Below, one piece after another: positions 937-11,969 of a DNA stretch of 64,000 nucleotides; positions within the stretch are counted from its first letter, which is position 1, and every line of letters starts with the position of its first letter. Under the pieces are notes generated by a model. It was given only the letters and a program-made list of their open reading frames with translations. It was not told the origin of the DNA and did no database searches. The DNA is from Chryseobacterium phocaeense (GTDB taxonomy: Bacteria; Bacteroidota; Bacteroidia; Flavobacteriales; Weeksellaceae), in the NCBI RefSeq assembly GCF_900169075.1, contig NZ_LT827014.1:806001-870000 (forward strand), given 5' to 3'. A program made the translations under genes and the position numbers.

Positions 937-944
937 TATTTTTG
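937..944 (+). promoter_or_regulatory. Candidate -7 promoter element (TATTTTTG)
   Basis: TATTTTTG matches the Bacteroidota -7 consensus TAnnTTTG and lies 16 bases before the ATG of the small ORF at 960. No -33 TTTG or TTG is seen at the usual distance, so the promoter is only partly supported. It could start the FkbH-ACP-MBOAT operon. Confidence 0.4.
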
Positions 945-959
945 TACCAAAGCAACACA

Positions 960-1079
960 ATGAAAAAAAATATAACTGTTCCTGATACATACGGTTTTAC
1001 TCACAGAGTAGTGCACCATGGCTCCAGAAAAAATAAAAACGAGCAGGTAAAATCGGGAACCGGTACATTAGGATTTTAA
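960..1079 (+). CDS. Possible 39-residue small protein upstream of the FkbH gene
   Basis: An ATG frame of 39 codons starts MKKNITVPDTYGF and ends GTGTLGF, with its stop 16 bases before the FkbH start. It is very basic, has no membrane segment and resembles no family I know. A -7 promoter element lies just upstream. Dlt operons carry a short DltX peptide at the same relative place, but DltX is a membrane peptide with an aromatic C-terminus and this is not, so position is the only likeness. It may be a leader peptide, a real microprotein or a chance frame. Confidence 0.35.
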   Translation: MKKNITVPDTYGFTHRVVHHGSRKNKNEQVKSGTGTLGF

Positions 1080-1095
1080 TAAAATAAAAGAATTT

Positions 1096-2820
1096 ATGTA
1101 CAAAACGTTTTCCGAACTGAAAAAAGAACTCCGCAGGGATACTACTCAGCTCAAGAAGATCAAAGTTGCATTATTGGGGGACACCGCAACCCAGTTTCTT
1201 AATATTGCATTAAGAGGAACCGCCATAGATGAAGGTTTTGATCTGCAGATTTTTGAAGCTGATTTCGGACAGATTTCCCGGCAAATCCTTGATCCTACAT
1301 CTGAATACTATGAGTTTAATGCGGACTATACTATTATCTTTGAATCTTCCCATAAACTGCTCAGCCAGTATTATAAATCCTATGATACACAGGCTGGGTT
1401 TGCGGAAAATAAAATTTCCGGCATTCAGGAGCTGTACAGCTCCATCCAGAGCAGAACCAAAAGCAGGGTGATCTACTGTAATTTTCCGGGGATCAACAAT
1501 CAGGTTTTTGGGAATTTTTCCAATAAAGTGGAGTCTTCTTTTGTTTTCCAGCTCAATAAGCTTAATTATCTGCTGGCTGCTCAGATTGCAATAGAAAATG
1601 ATAACTTTTTTATTGCAGATCTTCATTCTATTCAGAATAAATGGGGACGTGACTTTATGTTCTCACCGAGCATTTACGTAAATACAGAAATGGTTTTATC
1701 ACTGGATGCATTACCTATTGTGGCCCGGCATATCACAGGAATTATTTCATCCCTGGAAGGGAAATTTAAGAAATGTCTGATCCTTGATCTGGACAATACG
1801 ACCTGGGGTGGAATCATTGGAGACGATGGCCTGGAAAAAATCCAGATCGGAAGCCTGGGAATAGGAAAAGCATTTACAGAATTCCAGTATTGGGTAAAGG
1901 CCCTGCAGAAAAGGGGAGTGATCCTGGCCGTTTGCAGTAAAAATGATGAAGATAAAGCCAGAGAGCCTTTTGAAAAACATCCGGATATGGTCCTTAAGAT
2001 GGAAGATATTGCCGTTTTTGTGGCGAACTGGGATAATAAGGCAGATAATATCAGAAAGATCCAAAGCATCCTGAATATAGGGTTTGATTCTATGGTTTTT
2101 CTTGATGACAATCCGTTTGAACGGAATATTGTACGCGAAAATCTCCCTGAGGTCTGTGTTCCTGAACTGCCGGAAGATCCTGCAGAATACCTGGAATATC
2201 TGTACAGTCTGAATCTTTTCGAAACAGCCAGTTTCTCGGAAAATGATGCAGAACGTACCAAACAGTACCAGGTGGAAGCCCAAAGAGCTGTTGACCTCGA
2301 TAGCTTTACCAATGTGGAAGATTTCCTGAAAAGTATGGCAATGACTTCTGATGTAAAGTCTTTCGACAGTTTTTCAAAGCCACGGGTTTCCCAGCTGACA
2401 CAACGCTCCAACCAGTTTAACCTGAGAACCATAAGATATTCTGAACAGGATGTAGACAACCTGATCAAATCCGATGATCATTATACACTTTCTTTCACGC
2501 TGGAAGATAAATACGGAGACAACGGACTGATCTGCGTGATAGTCCTGGAGAAAAAAGCCCCGGAAACACTTTTTATTGATACATGGCTTATGAGCTGCCG
2601 GGTCCTTAAAAGAGGAATGGAAGATTTTACCCTGAATACCATCATAGATACAGCGAAAAAGAACGGCTATAAATATGTGGTGGGAGAATATCTTCCGACT
2701 GCCAAAAACCAGATGGTAAAAGACCATTATGAAAGGCTGGGATTCTCAGAACAGGATCAGAAGTGGGTGCTGGATGTAGATACCTATCAGCATAAACAAG
2801 TATATATTAACATTAAATAA
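1096..2820 (+). CDS. FkbH-like protein (HAD superfamily subfamily IIIC)
   Basis: The 574-residue protein has the three-part build of the FkbH family. An N-terminal SGNH-like region (about 1-215) is followed by a HAD phosphatase domain with DLDNTTWGG (nucleophile Asp231, acid/base Asp233) and FLDDNP (about 336-341), then a GNAT-like C-terminal region (about 430-560). The family's AVCSKND motif is at 278-284, with Cys280. Characterised FkbH/OzmB-type enzymes take 1,3-bisphosphoglycerate, remove phosphate and load a glyceryl group onto an acyl carrier protein. An ACP gene follows 17 bases downstream. No polyketide synthase is visible in the window, so the loaded ACP probably serves the MBOAT system that follows. 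Glyceryl as the acyl group is inferred. Confidence 0.85.
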   Translation: MYKTFSELKKELRRDTTQLKKIKVALLGDTATQFLNIALRGTAIDEGFDLQIFEADFGQISRQILDPTSEYYEFNADYTIIFESSHKLLSQYYKSYDTQAGFAENKISGIQELYSSIQSRTKSRVIYCNFPGINNQVFGNFSNKVESSFVFQLNKLNYLLAAQIAIENDNFFIADLHSIQNKWGRDFMFSPSIYVNTEMVLSLDALPIVARHITGIISSLEGKFKKCLILDLDNTTWGGIIGDDGLEKIQIGSLGIGKAFTEFQYWVKALQKRGVILAVCSKNDEDKAREPFEKHPDMVLKMEDIAVFVANWDNKADNIRKIQSILNIGFDSMVFLDDNPFERNIVRENLPEVCVPELPEDPAEYLEYLYSLNLFETASFSENDAERTKQYQVEAQRAVDLDSFTNVEDFLKSMAMTSDVKSFDSFSKPRVSQLTQRSNQFNLRTIRYSEQDVDNLIKSDDHYTLSFTLEDKYGDNGLICVIVLEKKAPETLFIDTWLMSCRVLKRGMEDFTLNTIIDTAKKNGYKYVVGEYLPTAKNQMVKDHYERLGFSEQDQKWVLDVDTYQHKQVYINIK

Positions 2821-2837
2821 TTATTTCCCATAACATT

Positions 2838-3074
2838 ATGAACAAAGATGAAATTTTAGCTAAGCTTACCGGTATTTTCCACGACGAACTGGATAATGAT
2901 GCCATTGTATTAAGTTTTGAAACCACCGCAGAAGATATTGAAGAATGGGATTCTCTTTCCCATATCCAGCTGATTGTAGCAGTGGAAAAGGCTTTCGGGG
3001 TACGATTTACTTCTTCAGAGATCCAAAGCTGGAATAATGTAGGAGAAATGATAGACTGTATACTCGCTAAATAA
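2838..3074 (+). CDS. Acyl carrier protein
   Basis: A small acidic protein of 78 residues with the phosphopantetheine site EEWDSLSH (Ser39), a four-helix ACP pattern and usual ACP length. It follows the FkbH gene by 17 bases, and its TAA overlaps the ATG of the next gene by one base, so translation is probably coupled. It is probably a dedicated carrier rather than the fatty-acid ACP, because it sits among an FkbH loader, tailoring enzymes and an MBOAT transferase. In Dlt terms it would take the DltC role. A separate phosphopantetheinyl transferase is needed and is not in the window. Confidence 0.9.
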   Translation: MNKDEILAKLTGIFHDELDNDAIVLSFETTAEDIEEWDSLSHIQLIVAVEKAFGVRFTSSEIQSWNNVGEMIDCILAK

Positions 3075-3469
3075 TGATACTCCGGGAAAATCAGGAATTC
3101 AGGCATCAGTTTAAAGTGGATGACCGTATTTACAACGGTTTTATCTCTGTATTTGAGGACCGGAATGCACTTCATACGGATGAGGAATTTGCAAAAGATA
3201 AAGGATTTCCGTCCAAAGTAATGCACGGAAACATCCTGAACGGTTTTTTGTCTTACTTTATCGGGGAACTCCTGCCTACAGAAGATGTGATGATCCTTTC
3301 GCAGACCATCAATTTTAAAAATCCGGTATATCTGAATGATGTGTTGAATTTCGAAGCAGTCCTTACAGATCAGTCGGAAGCGGTCCGGGTAAATACCTTT
3401 GCATTTAAATTTATCAATGAAAACCTAAAGACCGTAGCATCAGGTAAAATTCAAATCAAAGAATTCTAA
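3074..3469 (+). CDS. MaoC-like (hot-dog fold) hydratase/dehydratase
   Basis: The 131 residues carry the MaoC/(R)-specific enoyl hydratase pattern: FEDRNALHTDEEFA (about 27-40) followed by GFPSKVMHGN (44-53). His34, Asp36 and His51-Gly52 fall in the conserved sites. Enzymes of this fold add or remove water at the beta carbon of acyl-CoA or acyl-ACP. It overlaps the genes on both sides by one base (TAATG), so it is tightly coupled to the ACP and the SDR gene. It could act on the ACP-bound acyl group or be a thioesterase-like relative; the exact reaction is unknown. Confidence 0.8.
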   Translation: MILRENQEFRHQFKVDDRIYNGFISVFEDRNALHTDEEFAKDKGFPSKVMHGNILNGFLSYFIGELLPTEDVMILSQTINFKNPVYLNDVLNFEAVLTDQSEAVRVNTFAFKFINENLKTVASGKIQIKEF

Positions 3470-4182
3470 TGAAAAAAGTGGTATTGACCGGAGGCTCGTC
3501 CGGTATTGGTAAAGAAATTAATCTTTTTCTTCTGGAAAAGGGATATGAAGTACTGTTTACATATTGCCATTCCGAAGCACCTGCAAAAGAAATAGAACAT
3601 CAATTTTCCAAGGCAAAAGCTTTCCGGATTGATTTCACTTCGGGAGAGCAGATGAATGCTTTTCAGACTGAAATAGAAACCTTTGATCCGGATATTCTCA
3701 TCAATAATTATTACAGCGGCAGTTTTATCGATACCTATTTTCATAAAACAGAAGCCGAGAAAATTCTTGAAGATTTTAAAAATAATGTGATGCCGGCCAT
3801 TCAGGTAACCCAGAAATGCATCAATATCTTCCGGAAGAAAAAGCTGGGAAGAATTATCAATATCCTTTCCTCTTCAATGGTTTCGCCTGCGATAGGAACT
3901 TCCGTGTATAACTCCAACAAAGCCTATCTTCTTCAGATGAGTAAAAGCTGGGCTGTAGAGAATGTAAAATTCGGGATTACGTGCAATTCGGTTTCCCCGT
4001 CTTTTATTCCAACCGGTTTTCACAAAGATATGGATGAAAGAATGAAGGAAGTGATTGTTTCCGGATATCCGTTAAAAGACAAATTGGAAGGTGGTGATGT
4101 GGCCAATATTATTGAACTCTGCATCAATGGCGGGAAGCATTTTAACGGAAATCATCTTTTTGTGGATGCCTCCCATTATTAG
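3469..4182 (+). CDS. SDR family oxidoreductase (FabG-like)
   Basis: A 237-residue short-chain dehydrogenase with the nucleotide motif TGGSSGIG (7-14) and catalytic YNSNK (Tyr147, Lys151) behind a serine cluster (134-136). FabG-type members reduce beta-keto acyl-ACP to the 3-hydroxy form with NADPH. Coupling to the ACP and MaoC-like genes points to an acyl-ACP substrate. The usual NAG motif reads LINNYYSG, a small departure from the family. It could also act on an unrelated sugar or keto substrate. Confidence 0.85.
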   Translation: MKKVVLTGGSSGIGKEINLFLLEKGYEVLFTYCHSEAPAKEIEHQFSKAKAFRIDFTSGEQMNAFQTEIETFDPDILINNYYSGSFIDTYFHKTEAEKILEDFKNNVMPAIQVTQKCINIFRKKKLGRIINILSSSMVSPAIGTSVYNSNKAYLLQMSKSWAVENVKFGITCNSVSPSFIPTGFHKDMDERMKEVIVSGYPLKDKLEGGDVANIIELCINGGKHFNGNHLFVDASHY

Positions 4183-4198
4183 ACCTAAATAAAAATCA

Positions 4199-5614
4199 AT
4201 GCAGTTTACATCTATTGCCTTTTTTCTTTTTTTTACCCTGGTTTTCAGTCTATACTGGCTGGCTGGAAGGAAAAATCTTAAACTTCAGAATATATTGCTG
4301 CTGGTTTCAAGTTATGTTTTTTATGGCTTTTGGGACTGGAGATTTCTGGCACTTCTGGCCGGAAGTTCTGCTGTAGCGTATTATTTAGGGCAGAAAATTG
4401 GGGCAAGCCAGGGAAGAGCAAAGAAAATATACCTCAATTCAGGACTGATCCTGGCGATAGGAACCTTATTTTATTTTAAATATTTCGGATTTTTTATCGA
4501 CTCTTTTGCGGATTTGTTCGGCATTAAAAATAAACTTACCATTTCCATTATTTTACCATTGGGAATCAGCTTTTATACCTTCAGGATCGTCAGCTATTTT
4601 CTGGATATCAAAAATAATAAGCTGAAACCGGAAACGGATGCTCTGGCCTTTTTTAATTATGTAGCATTCTTTCCGAGCATGACCTCAGGGCCTATTGACA
4701 AGGGCGGATTACTGCTTCCCCAAATAAAAAAAGAAAGGATTTTCACTGAAGAGACAGGGGCTGATGCGGTAAGGCAGATCCTTTACGGGGCCTTTAAAAA
4801 ATTGGTGGTAGCCAACAGTATTACCCCCATCACACAGTCCATTTTTCAAAATTATGATACACTTTCCGGTAGTACAGTAGCATTCGGGGCCGTACTTTTC
4901 CTGTTTGAGCTCTATGCAGATTTTTCAGGATACTCCGATATGGCGGTGGGATTTGCCCGACTTTTAGGGTTTAAGATCACCAAAAACTTTGCGTTTCCCC
5001 TTTTTGCGCAGAATATTGCCGAGTATTGGAGAAAATGGCATATATCACTTACTTCATGGCTCACGGAATATGTTTTTACCCCTTTGGTGATCCAGTTCCG
5101 CGATTACGGAAAAAGAGGGCTCATTGCAGCTATTATCCTGAATTTTATTCTGATCGGGGCGTGGCACGGGCCAAGGCTAACCTTTGTCTTATTCGGATTA
5201 CTGCACGGGCTGTATTATATTCCGCTGATTGTAAAGGATAAGCTTAATAAAAAGAAAAAGTTTTCCGGGAATTTCCCTACCATCAAAGAACTTGGAAATA
5301 TACTTTTAACCTTATTGATGGTATGTTTTGCACTCGTACTTTTTGCAGCACCGGATCTGGAAGCTGCTTTGGGCATGTATGGAAGAATTTTCAGCCTTTC
5401 CCTGTTTTCCGTTCCGCAGTTTATCAAAATTAAAGTGTTGGGGTTAATCGGGATTCTGATTATCATTGACTGGTTTAATAAGGACCAGGAACACGGACTG
5501 GAGATCAAAAGATTCAATCCACTCATCAGAAGGGCTTTCTACGTTTTCCTGATCTTTATGATTATGTATTACGGCGTATTTGCTAATGGAAACTACATCT
5601 ATGAACAGTTTTAA
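4199..5614 (+). CDS. MBOAT family membrane O-acyltransferase (AlgI/DltB-like)
   Basis: A 471-residue multi-pass membrane protein of normal AlgI/PatA/DltB length. It has the MBOAT hallmarks YWRKWHISLTSW (276-287) and GAWHGPRLT (320-328), with the invariant His at 323 and another at 336. The C-terminus reads NYIYEQF (465-471), close to the FIYFQF-type tail of AlgI/PatA proteins and to the tyrosine motif that carries the acyl group in DltX. The enzyme should move an acyl group from a cytoplasmic thioester donor, probably the ACP at 2838, across the membrane. The partner SGNH gene starts 2 bases downstream. Confidence 0.92.
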   Translation: MQFTSIAFFLFFTLVFSLYWLAGRKNLKLQNILLLVSSYVFYGFWDWRFLALLAGSSAVAYYLGQKIGASQGRAKKIYLNSGLILAIGTLFYFKYFGFFIDSFADLFGIKNKLTISIILPLGISFYTFRIVSYFLDIKNNKLKPETDALAFFNYVAFFPSMTSGPIDKGGLLLPQIKKERIFTEETGADAVRQILYGAFKKLVVANSITPITQSIFQNYDTLSGSTVAFGAVLFLFELYADFSGYSDMAVGFARLLGFKITKNFAFPLFAQNIAEYWRKWHISLTSWLTEYVFTPLVIQFRDYGKRGLIAAIILNFILIGAWHGPRLTFVLFGLLHGLYYIPLIVKDKLNKKKKFSGNFPTIKELGNILLTLLMVCFALVLFAAPDLEAALGMYGRIFSLSLFSVPQFIKIKVLGLIGILIIIDWFNKDQEHGLEIKRFNPLIRRAFYVFLIFMIMYYGVFANGNYIYEQF

Positions 5615-5616
5615 TT

Positions 5617-6540
5617 ATGAGAAAGTTTTTATTTAAAATATCATTGTACATTCTTGGGGTTGCCGGCGTACTGCTGTTTCTGGGTTCTTATGCCGATGGG
5701 AATACGGATGACAACTACATGCATTTTGCGGTAGAAAAGCCTCATAATATTATTCTGGGAGATTCCAGAAGCGTGCAGGGAATAGTGCCGGAAATCCTGA
5801 AAACCAGGCTTTCAGTTCCTTTTGATAACTTTTCACTGAATATTGTAGAGTCACCATATGGTCCGGTGTATCTGAAAGCTTTAAAAAGAAAGCTGGATCC
5901 TGCTACCAACAACGGAATTTTTATTCTTACCGTAAGTCCGTGGAATCTTGCATTAAATGGCAGTGTAAACAAAATAGAAGACTTTCCTGAAGAGCATTCT
6001 CCACTGAATAATATGTATTTCTACGATAAATCGCCCAACTATGAATACCTGATCCGGAACTACAGTAAAAGCTGGTTCAGGATTTATTTGGACAGGGAAG
6101 AGATCGTGAGGTCTAATACTTTCCTCCATAAAGACGGCTGGATGGAAGTGAATGTAGACATGAACAAAGATTCCGTAGCAGCCAGAGCCGCTGTAAAAAT
6201 TAAAGAATACAGGGCTGTATTGCATACTTACAGGTTATCTGAAGAGCGATTGCAAGCCATTAACGAAATCATAGACTATTTACAGCCTAAAGGAACAGTT
6301 TATCTGGTGAGAATTCCTACTTCCAAAAATATGATGGCTCTTGAAAATGAAAGATTTCCGGAATTCAATGCTTTGATGAAAGATCTTTCAAAGAGGCAAC
6401 GGGTTAAGTTTTATGATTTTTCCGGACGTAGCGATGATTTCGTTTACACAGACGGAAACCATATGTACAGCAAATCTGCAAAGATTCTTACTGCTCAGAT
6501 TGCAGATTCCATTGAGGCAGAAAAGAACAGTTTAAAATAA
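5617..6540 (+). CDS. SGNH-type DltD/AlgJ-like envelope acyl-transfer partner
   Basis: The protein has 307 residues. An N-terminal membrane anchor (about 5-24) is followed by a periplasmic domain with ILGDSRS (46-52, nucleophile Ser50) and, near the end, TDGNHM (278-283), giving the Asp279/His282 pair of an SGNH esterase or transferase. SGNH partners of MBOAT proteins (DltD, AlgJ/AlgX, PatB) pass the acyl group to the extracellular polymer. The gene is 2 bases after the MBOAT stop and is the last of the + strand operon. Overall similarity to DltD is weak; the call rests on the motifs and the context. Confidence 0.7.
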   Translation: MRKFLFKISLYILGVAGVLLFLGSYADGNTDDNYMHFAVEKPHNIILGDSRSVQGIVPEILKTRLSVPFDNFSLNIVESPYGPVYLKALKRKLDPATNNGIFILTVSPWNLALNGSVNKIEDFPEEHSPLNNMYFYDKSPNYEYLIRNYSKSWFRIYLDREEIVRSNTFLHKDGWMEVNVDMNKDSVAARAAVKIKEYRAVLHTYRLSEERLQAINEIIDYLQPKGTVYLVRIPTSKNMMALENERFPEFNALMKDLSKRQRVKFYDFSGRSDDFVYTDGNHMYSKSAKILTAQIADSIEAEKNSLK

Positions 6541-8598: not shown

Positions 8599-10394
8599 TA
8601 GAGTACGGATTGATTGTTATGGGCCCATAGAGCCAGTTGCAGAAGGTTCCAGTGCTTGTTGTCGTGAGCCAGAAATTTCTGGGCAGCATTAAAATCAATA
8701 TAATTAAAGATTTTCTGATCCTTGTTTTTCAGAAGATCGTCGGAAAGTTTCATGATATTTTCTTCCGCAAACCAGCTTTTAACGCTCATTCCGAATCCCT
8801 GTTTATGGCGTTTTCTGATGGTTTCCGTCCAGTAAGGGCCCATCGCTTCACGAAGGATGATCTTATCATTGTCGTCCGTCAGTTTCAGCTGTTCGGGAAG
8901 CTGGATGCAGAACTCGGCAAAATCCAGATCCAGGAAAGGGGTTCTTACTTCAAGTGAATTGGCCATGGCCATCCGGTCGGACTTGACCATCATATTACCG
9001 GGAACATAGTGTTCCAGGTCTACTCTCATAATATCATTCAGGGAATCCGGGTCGGGAGTAAAGCTGTAGTCCTGTTTGTAATCAGACATCAGCCCGAGCC
9101 TGTTTCTTTCTTCTTTATTGAAATCATTTCTTACAAAATTCAGATGGAAATCCAGAATGGACGCAAACTTTAAGTTCTGTTGGGTCACAAAGGAAGTCTG
9201 TCTGGCCTTCTGATAGAGTTTTAAGCCAAACCGGGCAATGATATTTTTATAGCTGAAATGATTTTTTAATTTATTTTCGACGGTATAAAAATGATATCCT
9301 CCGAAAAGTTCATCACCCACATCTCCGGAAAGCGCCACGGTAAGGCTTTTCCTGGCATTTTTACAGATCTCATAATGTGGAAGGTAAGAAGTGTCGGCAA
9401 AAGGTTCATCCAAATACGGTGATATTTTCAGCAGGGATTCTGCAAGGTCACCTTTCTGCTCATGCACCTCACGGTGGTTGGTCTTGTATTTATCAGCAAT
9501 TTCTTTGGCAAATTTAAGCTCGCTGTCTTTATGGTCATAACCGAAGCTGATAGTGGTCTGATGAGGAAGAAATTCATCTACCAAAGCTACGATGGAGGAA
9601 GAATCCAGGCCTCCGCTCAGGAAACTTCCGACTTCTACATCAGCAATAAGTTGCTTTTTGACCGCATTTTTCAGCAGGTACATAAACTCTTCTTTAGCGT
9701 CGGACAAGCTGAGTACCCTGTCTTTTGCCGGAAGGCTGTAATATCTGGAAACGGTAACTTTCCCCTCTTTCCAGATCAGCTGGTGGGCCGGCGGAAGGGT
9801 GAAAATATTACTGTATATACTTTGATAGGAACTTACATATCCATACTGAAGATAATGGGAAAGCGCATCTGTATTTACCCTGGGAGCAATGAGCCCGGAA
9901 GCCAGAATTGCTTTGATCTCTGAAGCGAAAATAAATTCATTATTGTTTCCAATGGCATAATAAAACGGTTTTTCTCCAAAACGGTCTCTGGCACAGAAAA
10001 GTTCCTGCTTTTCATCATTCCAGAGGGCGAACGCAAACATGCCGGGAAGATCATGGATGAGGTTTTCCTGTTTTCTCTGGTACATGGCCAGGATCACTTC
10101 GGTATCTGAACCTCCATGATAAGGATATTCGGCATAATTCTTTTTAATATCCTGGTATCCGTAGATCTCACCGTTAAGGACAATGCATTCTTTTTTTGTA
10201 TAGGAGAACATAGGCTGTTTTCCATTGTCGGAGAGGTCTATAATAGAGAGTCTCCGGTGGCCTAAGGCAGCATTTTCATAAAATTCATAATGTGAAGAAT
10301 CCGGTCCACGGTGCATCATGGAATCCGTCATTTTCCGGATTTCTTCCTGGTAGTTTCTGGCATTATTAGCGATGATTCCGGCTATTCCACACAT
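8598..10394 (-). CDS. asnB: Asparagine synthase (glutamine-hydrolysing)
   Basis: A 598-residue AsnB. It starts MCGIAGII, so Cys2 is the class II amidotransferase nucleophile, with HRGPDSS nearby. The synthetase half has the PP-loop SGGLDSSS. AsnB proteins make asparagine from aspartate and glutamine. Copies inside polysaccharide loci are common and are thought to amidate uronic or other sugar acids. Here ugd lies at the start of the locus, so amidation of a GlcA-derived acid is possible, as is amidation of an amino-acid substituent. It is 3 bases from the upstream membrane-protein gene and overlaps the next GT2 gene. Confidence 0.9.
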   Translation of the reverse strand: MCGIAGIIANNARNYQEEIRKMTDSMMHRGPDSSHYEFYENAALGHRRLSIIDLSDNGKQPMFSYTKKECIVLNGEIYGYQDIKKNYAEYPYHGGSDTEVILAMYQRKQENLIHDLPGMFAFALWNDEKQELFCARDRFGEKPFYYAIGNNNEFIFASEIKAILASGLIAPRVNTDALSHYLQYGYVSSYQSIYSNIFTLPPAHQLIWKEGKVTVSRYYSLPAKDRVLSLSDAKEEFMYLLKNAVKKQLIADVEVGSFLSGGLDSSSIVALVDEFLPHQTTISFGYDHKDSELKFAKEIADKYKTNHREVHEQKGDLAESLLKISPYLDEPFADTSYLPHYEICKNARKSLTVALSGDVGDELFGGYHFYTVENKLKNHFSYKNIIARFGLKLYQKARQTSFVTQQNLKFASILDFHLNFVRNDFNKEERNRLGLMSDYKQDYSFTPDPDSLNDIMRVDLEHYVPGNMMVKSDRMAMANSLEVRTPFLDLDFAEFCIQLPEQLKLTDDNDKIILREAMGPYWTETIRKRHKQGFGMSVKSWFAEENIMKLSDDLLKNKDQKIFNYIDFNAAQKFLAHDNKHWNLLQLALWAHNNQSVL

Positions 10395-10397
10395 AAT

Positions 10398-11969
10398 TTA
10401 TTTTTTTTGATAATTGGATGGAAGGTATAGCGTAAACCGTCCTGTTTTTACTATTTTATATTTTTCCGGATGATCCACGAATTTCAAAGGTACAATTTCT
10501 CGTTCGAGGAAAGGGTAATCGTTACTTTCTATGTAGATGAAATCGTCCGGAGTTTTGCCCACTTTTTTAATGATGAATCTTACATAATCCTTGAGTGCAA
10601 AATAATAGTAAATGGGCGGTCTTGCATCCAGAAAATACAGGTATCCCGTAAGGTGGTTACTGGAATAGATCACATTGGGCTGATTCTGCAGGTACGGACG
10701 AAGGTCATCCAGATCTTTTTTTCTTTCTTTATCTACATAAAAATCATGACCGTTCAGTTGTATTTTTGAAGTCTGTTCTACATACACAAAATCTTTCCAG
10801 CCTTTATCATACAGGAAAAGAGGATAGATTACTACAGAATAGAAGAAAAAGGACAGGTATACGAGATATGCCCTGAAATTGTACATACAGATAACCGCAA
10901 TATTAATAGCCAGTAAATAATAAATCTGGTACATTCCTCCTCTGATGTAAAAATAAAATCCGGAGCCGAACGCCAGACCAAATGGCAAGAGCGTCAGTAA
11001 AATACACAGTGTTTTTTTCTCCAGAGAAATATGTTCGTTCATATAAAAACGATACATAAGCAATCCTGTGTATACATAGAGAATATAAAGATTGAAATAG
11101 AAAACGGATAGTAGAACTATCGCAATACCTGAATAAAGAAGCAGCTTATCTACACTTTCTTTCTGTACTTTCTTCCTGATCAGGAAAAACAGCAACAGGG
11201 CAACAGGGATGAGGACAAAACCTATGATCTGTGCTACCCAGATGATATAAAACCGTTTAGGGTGCTGCTTGGTGTGAAACTCTTTGTAGATTTTGATGTA
11301 TTCCAGCTGTTTTATAAAGACAGACAGGTCTTCAATAAAAGTAAAATAAAAAAATATCGCTGCTATGATCCCGGTAAAGAATAAGAAAATGACTGTTTTA
11401 TCTTTTTTCCAGAAATTAATCAGCAGGAATAAAATGATAGGAATCACGGTAATAGAATGCGGAATCCCGTTAAAAAGTAATATTCCCATAAAAAAGCCTG
11501 AAAAAACGAGCAGCCATTTTTTGTGGGATATCAGAAAGAAAACCAGCATGGATAATGCAAGGTTGGTGAGAATCGTATTACCATGATACTGGTTCAGAAT
11601 AACTATCGTTCCATGCCAGGTTAAAAAATTAATGCTCGTTCCCAGAAAACCAAATAGAAGGGGAGAGATTTTAAGTTTATAATACTTTGAAATACTATAG
11701 AACAGTAAAAAAGAAGAAGCATTTAAAAGCAAAAAAGTAATAATCCGGAAATGGTAGACATTATCGGTATAAAATATTTTAAAAATCCTGAAATAATTCG
11801 TAGAATCTACAGTAAGGACATTCTTTGCATCCTTGAAGTGGAACAAATAAAAAGCTTCGTCGTTCATCACGAGACCTTTATTGAAATTGGAATACACCAG
11901 ATATCCCATTACCAAAGAGGAAATAATAAACAGAATCCCTGCGAGGTTCCAGTATTTGATTTTTTCCAT
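10398..11969 (-). CDS. Multi-pass membrane protein, GT-C-like (ArnT/Dpm-dependent type)
   Basis: About ten or more hydrophobic segments followed by a soluble C-terminal domain of roughly 120 residues; 523 residues from the chosen start. The first periplasmic loop carries NDEAF; acidic pairs at this place are typical of GT-C enzymes that use polyprenyl-phosphate sugars. The ATG at 11969 (MEKIKYW) was chosen because it follows the methyltransferase stop by one base (TAGTATG); an upstream ATG at 11987 would overlap that gene. The GtrB-like enzyme at 12864 could make its lipid-linked donor. A polymerase-like role cannot be excluded. Confidence 0.6.
   Translation of the reverse strand: MEKIKYWNLAGILFIISSLVMGYLVYSNFNKGLVMNDEAFYLFHFKDAKNVLTVDSTNYFRIFKIFYTDNVYHFRIITFLLLNASSFLLFYSISKYYKLKISPLLFGFLGTSINFLTWHGTIVILNQYHGNTILTNLALSMLVFFLISHKKWLLVFSGFFMGILLFNGIPHSITVIPIILFLLINFWKKDKTVIFLFFTGIIAAIFFYFTFIEDLSVFIKQLEYIKIYKEFHTKQHPKRFYIIWVAQIIGFVLIPVALLLFFLIRKKVQKESVDKLLLYSGIAIVLLSVFYFNLYILYVYTGLLMYRFYMNEHISLEKKTLCILLTLLPFGLAFGSGFYFYIRGGMYQIYYLLAINIAVICMYNFRAYLVYLSFFFYSVVIYPLFLYDKGWKDFVYVEQTSKIQLNGHDFYVDKERKKDLDDLRPYLQNQPNVIYSSNHLTGYLYFLDARPPIYYYFALKDYVRFIIKKVGKTPDDFIYIESNDYPFLEREIVPLKFVDHPEKYKIVKTGRFTLYLPSNYQKK

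Follow-up and report, generated by a model that had tools for sequence, protein, structure and literature searches.

A predicted Dlt-like acylation cassette with an FkbH loader in Chryseobacterium and its exchangeable tailoring genes

The Dlt pathway of teichoic acid D-alanylation (DltA-DltC-DltB-DltX-DltD) combines a loader, a dedicated carrier, an MBOAT protein of the DltB fold, an acyl-tyrosine shuttle and the SGNH protein DltD. Putative counterparts of these parts are present in an operon of six genes at the beginning of a stretch of 64,000 nucleotides from a Chryseobacterium genome (positions 806001-870000 of contig C3; hereafter the window), and we put the probability that this operon makes a three-carbon acyl decoration, in the window via a lactyl-acyl carrier protein (ACP), and exports it to a periplasmic glycan at roughly 0.65. 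The loader of Dlt is an ATP-dependent D-Ala ligase, whereas that of the window is an FkbH-type protein predicted to take a glyceryl group from 1,3-bisphosphoglycerate. The shuttle motif is fused to the MBOAT in the window, whereas Dlt uses DltX (no search was aimed at a separate DltX-like microprotein); moreover, the host is Gram-negative and tailoring enzymes are predicted to act on the carrier-bound group. The window proteins also score below the Dlt family cut-offs: the ACP, a carrier protein but not DltC by model, reaches 16.4 bits on NF003464 for DltC (cut-off 68), and the MBOAT reaches 156.8 bits on the DltB equivalog TIGR04091 (cut-off 375). O-acetylation systems of the PatAB and AlgI/AlgX(J) types share with the window a fused C-terminal shuttle on extra helices, a separate SGNH protein and a Gram-negative setting; in contrast, PatA is fed by acetyl-CoA, and in the passages at hand the MBOAT/SGNH pathways other than Dlt are described as having no similar carrier protein (PMC12148441).

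FkbH and an ACP are likewise shared with the glyceryl-ACP modules of polyketide synthases (PKS) and nonribosomal peptide synthetases (NRPS), such as those of methoxymalonyl-ACP, the tetronates and suomilide (AerB), in which oxidative, methylating or reducing tailoring takes place on the carrier, as in the cassettes considered here. Bryostatin BryA is a further example, on which an open-access literature search returned nothing. The window differs from these modules in that it has no PKS/NRPS and in that its product is predicted to reach an MBOAT-SGNH pair. In the available passages of the sources, FkbH makes glyceryl-ACP that is tailored to methoxymalonyl-ACP, several steps being worded as likely (PMC7489565); FkbH with a methyltransferase 'probably' provides methylglycerate (PMC10143770); and a published pathway rule leads from FkbH to D-lactate-ACP (PMC7901079). 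According to similar excerpts, di-O-methylglyceric acid decorates Campylobacter flagellin (PMC3958885) and an FkbH-domain gene lies in the flagellin glycosylation island (PMC7099621), a combination of an FkbH gene among glycan genes with a glycerate-derived sugar decoration that resembles the window; we infer that this gene, Cj1302, is linked to the di-O-methylglyceric acid group. In contrast to the window, an MBOAT-SGNH exporter is not mentioned in the two Campylobacter excerpts, and one fed by FkbH-ACP is absent from all five precedent passages (PMC7489565, PMC10143770, PMC7901079, PMC3958885 and PMC7099621). A search of the open-access PubMed Central (PMC) literature returned no FkbH-MBOAT envelope system; subscription papers and preprints were outside its scope, and absence from print is not thereby shown. 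If the proposed reading is true, this would be, to our knowledge, the second envelope acylation system after Dlt in which a carrier protein feeds an MBOAT-SGNH pair, with its supply coming directly from glycolysis; it would also offer a pathway by which bacterial polysaccharides acquire glyceryl, methylglyceryl or lactyl esters.

The genes of the operon are as follows.

1096..2820, + strand: FkbH-type loader (TIGR01686, FkbH_N)
2838..3074, + strand: ACP (PF00550)
3074..3469, + strand: MaoC-type dehydratase/hydratase (PF01575)
3469..4182, + strand: SDR ketoreductase (PF00106, FabG-like)
4199..5614, + strand: MBOAT transferase (PF03062)
5617..6540, + strand: SGNH-type acyltransferase, putatively DltD-like (motif and structural model)

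All six are intact, co-directional and placed as an earlier note on this DNA had described them. That note had also claimed one-base overlaps between the genes, which hold at two of the five junctions (ACP/MaoC and MaoC/SDR), the remaining three being gaps of 17, 16 and 2 bp. The genome has a single FkbH match and a single MBOAT match (E 0.001), both in this operon.

The loader scores 308.5 bits against TIGR01686 (cut-off 146.65) and 234.6 bits against FkbH_N, with an architecture of FkbH_N, HAD-IIIC and a C-terminal domain; it is 96% identical to the FkbH of C. endalhagicum and has a solved relative in 3slr (BF1531; 510 bits). The DxDNTxW motif of the HAD domain and the SCR motif, the Cys of which we take to be catalytic, are intact in all 81 FkbH proteins compared, and the DSL motif of the ACP is kept in 82 of 82, the window copies included in both counts. 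The window ACP matches PF00550 with 32.3 bits, and its phosphopantetheine serine is Ser39. In the MaoC protein the motif reads Asp29-x-Asn31-x-x-His34, with D29, N31 and H34 invariant in 25 of 25 rows; a stricter pattern with a trailing Asp matched 17 of 27 proteins, whereas D-x-N-x-x-H was present in all. Its best solved relative is 3ir3, 3-hydroxyacyl-thioester dehydratase 2 (48.5 bits). The SDR motif is Tyr147-x3-Lys151, and both residues are invariant in the 22 rows over 300 bits. As a separate observation, inspection by eye shows a GDS/GDT motif in the N-domain of FkbH, and this domain may be SGNH-like too; an FkbH-like protein (P0044) has an additional PF13472 (GDSL-type) domain.

The window MBOAT has DltB as its best fold match; to the DltB fold it adds two long helices and, at the C-terminus, the acyl-shuttle motif YIYEQF with Tyr468. 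Residues W322-H323-G324, Y468 and F471 are invariant in 27 rows, and His323 would be catalytic by analogy with the family. A shuttle motif of the FxYxxF type was found in 84 of 85 MBOATs, the window having the variant YxYxxF. The SGNH-type protein (5617-6540) has no Pfam family over cut-off and no match among solved structures by sequence up to E 1; it has one N-terminal membrane helix and an SGNH fold in the structural model, and Ser50, Asp279 and His282 are invariant in 19 rows. More than one MBOAT was seen in 16 of the 35 Chryseobacterium/Halpernia loci described below (for example, L006:6308-8716 and L020:14717-17069); the extra MBOATs often come with an SGNH-like gene and lack an ACP of their own, and are perhaps fed by acetyl-CoA.

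The gene set, the intact motifs, the DltB-like and putatively DltD-like folds, the co-inheritance and the exchange of the tailoring block are computed observations; from them we infer every chemical step as well as the lactyl product and the acceptor. FkbH would draw 1,3-bisphosphoglycerate from glycolysis and load D-glyceryl onto the dedicated ACP. MaoC is predicted to remove the C3 hydroxyl of glyceryl-ACP as water, giving enol/pyruvyl-ACP, and SDR to reduce C2, giving lactyl-ACP. The acyl-ACP would then dock on the cytoplasmic side of the MBOAT, which would move the acyl group across the membrane to Tyr468 of its own shuttle motif; the motif would pass it on to Ser50 of the SGNH partner, and this partner would esterify a glycan in the periplasm, probably the product of the adjacent polysaccharide locus. 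The Dlt-like logic with FkbH as loader, as proposed in the earlier note, is supported by sequence, fold, shuttle motif, gene neighbourhood and co-inheritance. Its broader suggestion of a glyceryl, or a derived three-carbon or hydroxyacyl group, can be refined: judging by the enzyme classes, the group displayed by the window version is probably lactyl, formed from glyceryl by MaoC and SDR.

For the comparison of neighbourhoods, we used the best 80 of 173 FkbH relatives from a scan of GTDB species genomes, a choice that biases the set to close kin, 35 being from Chryseobacterium or Halpernia. An ACP lies within 1.6 kb downstream of FkbH in all 80 loci (gene picking alone scored one of them, L034, as lacking it and thereby gave 79, yet this locus does carry an ACP). 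An MBOAT follows on the same strand in 63 loci and lies on either side in 68; among the 12 loci without one, five contigs stop within 2.2 kb. Between FkbH and MBOAT, the tailoring genes differ: methyltransferase plus VOC in 19 loci, none in 17, MaoC plus SDR in 16, VOC alone in 6 and mixed sets in 5, the other 17 loci having no downstream MBOAT. SDR accompanies MaoC in 24 of 25 MaoC loci, and no locus has both VOC and MaoC (0 of 80 loci, with 32 VOC and 25 MaoC carriers; 0 of 45 outside Chryseobacterium/Halpernia), although the p-values for this exclusion are inflated by kinship among loci. Such an exclusion would be understandable because VOC would invert C2 of the glyceryl group, whereas C2 would lose its configuration upon dehydration to (enol)pyruvyl and gain a new one upon reduction. 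The VOC proteins scanned are Glyoxalase_4 members with H5, Q38, E54, H73 and E121 invariant in 31 rows; since three of them reach 34.2, 40.1 and 28.6 bits on the methylmalonyl-CoA epimerase model TIGR03081 (cut-off 115), they are epimerase-like at most. The methyltransferase of L008 belongs to Methyltransf_23. In L067:11903-13968, a radical SAM protein (PF04055) takes the place of SDR behind MaoC, and in L048:4314-5116, a small nucleotidyltransferase-like gene and a partner (MNT/HEPN-like by eye) lie between ACP and MBOAT.

The tailoring type follows the MBOAT more closely than the FkbH. Trees were made from 57 loci and the window, with the 22 loci outside the four main types and L079, which has a split MBOAT, excluded; the trees were quick ones and gave long-branch warnings. 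Over these 58 rows, the FkbH tree requires 20 changes of tailoring label and the MBOAT tree 11 (shuffled means about 31); over the 35 Chryseobacterium/Halpernia rows, the counts are nine and three, respectively (shuffled means about 18), three being the minimum possible with four types. The MBOATs of MaoC plus SDR loci form their own clade within the genus. On a careful FkbH tree of 35 rows, calculated without a mixture model, approximately unbiased tests reject a single FkbH clade for the MaoC plus SDR (p 8.6e-6), methyltransferase plus VOC (1.5e-5) and plain (0.004) types. The gap between within-type and between-type identity is small in FkbH and the flanking genes, larger in ACP and strong in MBOAT and SGNH (34 rows, 33 for ACP and 22-30 for the flanks). 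Similarly, the nearest row is of the same type for MBOAT in 34 of 34 cases, SGNH in 33 of 34, ACP in 32 of 33 and FkbH in 26-27 of 34, with 13 of 22 to 22 of 30 for the flanking genes. It therefore seems that FkbH stays in place while the ACP, the tailoring genes, the MBOAT and the SGNH gene behind it are exchanged as one block, a pattern to be expected from a loader that attaches glyceryl in every version and an MBOAT that has to match the final acyl group.

The window thus appears to be one of at least four exchangeable versions, namely the MaoC plus SDR (probably lactyl) version, and as far as sequence can tell, a family of exchangeable three-carbon acylation cassettes is a better description than a single cassette. 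We lean, by a small margin over even odds, towards a modular three-carbon acyl code spanning Bacteroidota and Alphaproteobacteria, in which a constant FkbH would supply glyceryl-ACP and the exchangeable ACP-tailoring-MBOAT-SGNH block would set the displayed group as D-glyceryl, epimerised glyceryl, O-methylglyceryl or lactyl. If this is true, block exchange at a fixed site would vary the surface as a phage receptor or antigen with the glycan backbone genes untouched. As the tailoring genes are swapped with the matching MBOAT, the acyl specificity of MBOATs becomes testable across natural versions.

The linkage of FkbH to MBOAT, which the earlier note had suggested checking, is pronounced in the genus and exceeds chance. 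Among 148 Chryseobacterium genomes, 52 have FkbH (53 matches), and in 50 of the 53 a same-strand MBOAT lies 0.67-3.2 kb downstream; the three without it are the lowest-scoring matches. This count used the MBOAT matches of the FkbH-bearing genomes, and the distances run between family matches, not gene ends. They fall into groups of about 0.75 kb (15), 1.14 kb (2), 1.9 kb (14) and 2.04 kb (16), with three others, which would fit nothing, VOC, MaoC plus SDR, and methyltransferase plus VOC in between, as judged by the fetched loci and by size only.

Related gene sets also occur beyond Bacteroidota. A Rhodobacteraceae plasmid has the order ACP-FkbH-MBOAT-SGNH-like-VOC, with an MBOAT ending in FIYFNF. 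On pSymB of Sinorhizobium meliloti strains ml28 and ml59, the order is VOC-MBOAT-SGNH-like-ACP-FkbH, with an MBOAT ending in FLYQGF and capsule export genes 5-9 kb away; the SGNH-like genes of the Rhodobacteraceae and Sinorhizobium cassettes were identified from motifs only. VOC, MBOAT, ACP and FkbH follow in order on pSymB of strain 2011, in which FkbH is a single frame, whereas in the record of strain 1021 (L114, about 8629-10691) this frame is split in two pieces. An FkbH match was found in 40 Sinorhizobium plasmid records, of which the neighbourhoods of ml28, ml59, 2011 and 1021 were viewed. A Subdoligranulum (Bacillota) record (L087:7899-11370) has an FkbH-ACP-MaoC-SDR quartet with no recognised MBOAT nearby.

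Several results weigh against this interpretation. Seven of the 80 loci, with more than 5 kb downstream, show no MBOAT from -4 to +4.2 kb. In a draw of 148 genomes across the phylum, 14 have an FkbH match (11 over cut-off), and the profile search found an MBOAT neighbour only at the window's own locus. The 11 stretches fetched from this draw (10 over the FkbH cut-off and 1 below) show no further FkbH-MBOAT pair; five of the other FkbH over cut-off lie in open frames of 710-2987 aa, some form FkbH-ACP sets within clusters of glycosyltransferase genes, and in L102 the contig stops at FkbH; FkbH alone therefore does not imply the system. The tie between MBOAT and type is weak outside Chryseobacterium/Halpernia: the MBOAT tree shows 8 changes (mean of 200 shuffles 12.7, lowest 9) and the FkbH tree 11 (mean 12.5, lowest 9), and with the two VOC types merged the MBOAT is not beyond the shuffles (8 changes; mean 10.8, lowest 6), FkbH having 11 changes (mean 10.8). 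The shuttle tail (residues 463-471) has a predicted local distance difference test score (pLDDT) under 50 in the MBOAT model, and the DltD match of the SGNH protein is tied in Z with unrelated SGNH enzymes. A longer hydroxyacyl group is also conceivable as the substrate of MaoC and SDR. The open-access PMC literature yielded no biochemistry for cassette proteins, and we know of no product, acceptor or phenotype for the cassette. Separately, L103, L104 and L106 have FkbH-ACP, partly with VOC or methyltransferase, beside glycosyltransferase-like genes and without a recognised MBOAT, sets that perhaps perform cytoplasmic acylation of sugars.

With regard to the acceptor, an ABC-type polysaccharide locus lies downstream of the operon, mostly on the opposite strand; the genes scanned in it include GT2 genes, a WbsX glycosyltransferase, three DegT aminotransferases, a Wzt-like ABC ATPase, a nucleotidyl transferase and a UDP-glucose/GDP-mannose dehydrogenase. 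The glycan encoded there is a plausible acceptor. This adjacent locus with its glycosyltransferases, the putatively DltD-like fold of the SGNH partner and the capsule export genes near the Sinorhizobium version argue against another target of the cassette, such as a protein-linked glycan, a lipid or a secreted small molecule. MBOATs are also assigned to natural products in an aeruginosin review (PMC10143770); we consider such a target unlikely, though the foremost of the alternatives. Hardly behind it in likelihood is the same machine with a different cargo in the window, namely glyceryl or another three-carbon group (pyruvyl or O-modified), with MaoC and SDR otherwise engaged or acting in trans. 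Plain glyceryl is the only simple product for the 17 of 80 loci that have no tailoring gene between FkbH and MBOAT; however, the near-constant pairing of these two enzymes, their intact active sites, the exclusion of VOC by MaoC and the separate MBOAT clade of MaoC plus SDR loci in the genus speak for the lactyl version.

We regard it as quite improbable that a hydroxyacyl group derived from fatty acids (for example, 3-hydroxybutyryl formed from primary metabolism via MaoC and SDR) sits on the ACP, with FkbH being a relic or active elsewhere. Bacterial polysaccharides with hydroxybutyryl esters are known, and MaoC most resembles (R)-enoyl-thioester hydratases, as SDR does FabG-like reductases; in contrast, FkbH is the constant gene while all behind it is swapped, with HAD and Cys motifs intact in every copy, and the operon contains neither a ketosynthase nor an acyl-ACP synthetase. 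That FkbH-ACP feeds a distant PKS/NRPS and that the MBOAT-SGNH pair is an independent O-acetylase, dependent on acetyl-CoA as PatA is in the passages at hand (PMC12148441) and a neighbour by chance, is very improbable: although ketosynthase matches occur in frames of 2359 and 1416 aa on another contig, the nearest on this contig is about 127 kb away, the genus linkage is tight, ACP and tailoring genes are exchanged jointly with MBOAT and SGNH, and the same gene kinds occur on alphaproteobacterial plasmids. The same distance speaks against PKS genes just outside the window, which the earlier note had named as a refutation, and led us to reject supply by a PKS; by eye, no PKS-like open reading frame (ORF) was seen among those of at least 150 aa in the 20 kb upstream. 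DltA as a loader in trans was also rejected, as no match to TIGR01734 is over cut-off in the genome (all 10 matches are on contig C4), and there is no adenylation enzyme among the proteins of the operon.

FkbH-like proteins exist under the names Sphingomonas, Novosphingobium and Erythrobacter among the best 120 of 6967 that were listed (7999 candidates scored). The gellan producer Sphingomonas elodea bears an L-glyceryl ester on its gellan.

Three further features lie upstream of the operon.

1-930: acyltransferase-3 gene, directly upstream of the operon
937..944, + strand: promoter-like TAnnTTTG, candidate operon start (motif match)
960..1079, + strand: short ORF of 39 aa, possible leader

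The TAnnTTTG motif, which resembles the -7 type promoter motif of Bacteroidota, lies 159 bp upstream of FkbH in the window; of the 35 Chryseobacterium/Halpernia loci, 23 have it at a distance of about 160-175 bp from the start of the FkbH ORF, with all four tailoring types represented (counted with no shuffled control); this recurring position suggests that the operon may begin between the acyltransferase-3 gene and FkbH. The sole content of the stretch 960-1095 is the 39-codon ORF, a possible leader peptide that is not hydrophobic-looking by eye. In a lenient search, about 20 of the 35 loci proved to have a comparable short ORF in the same position; these ORFs are poorly conserved and fast-changing and often end in GT[FL]xF. 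The acyltransferase-3 gene, seen in the same place beside several tailoring types (for example, L003:19402-19998), is probably a separate O-acetylase, perhaps on a separate transcript.

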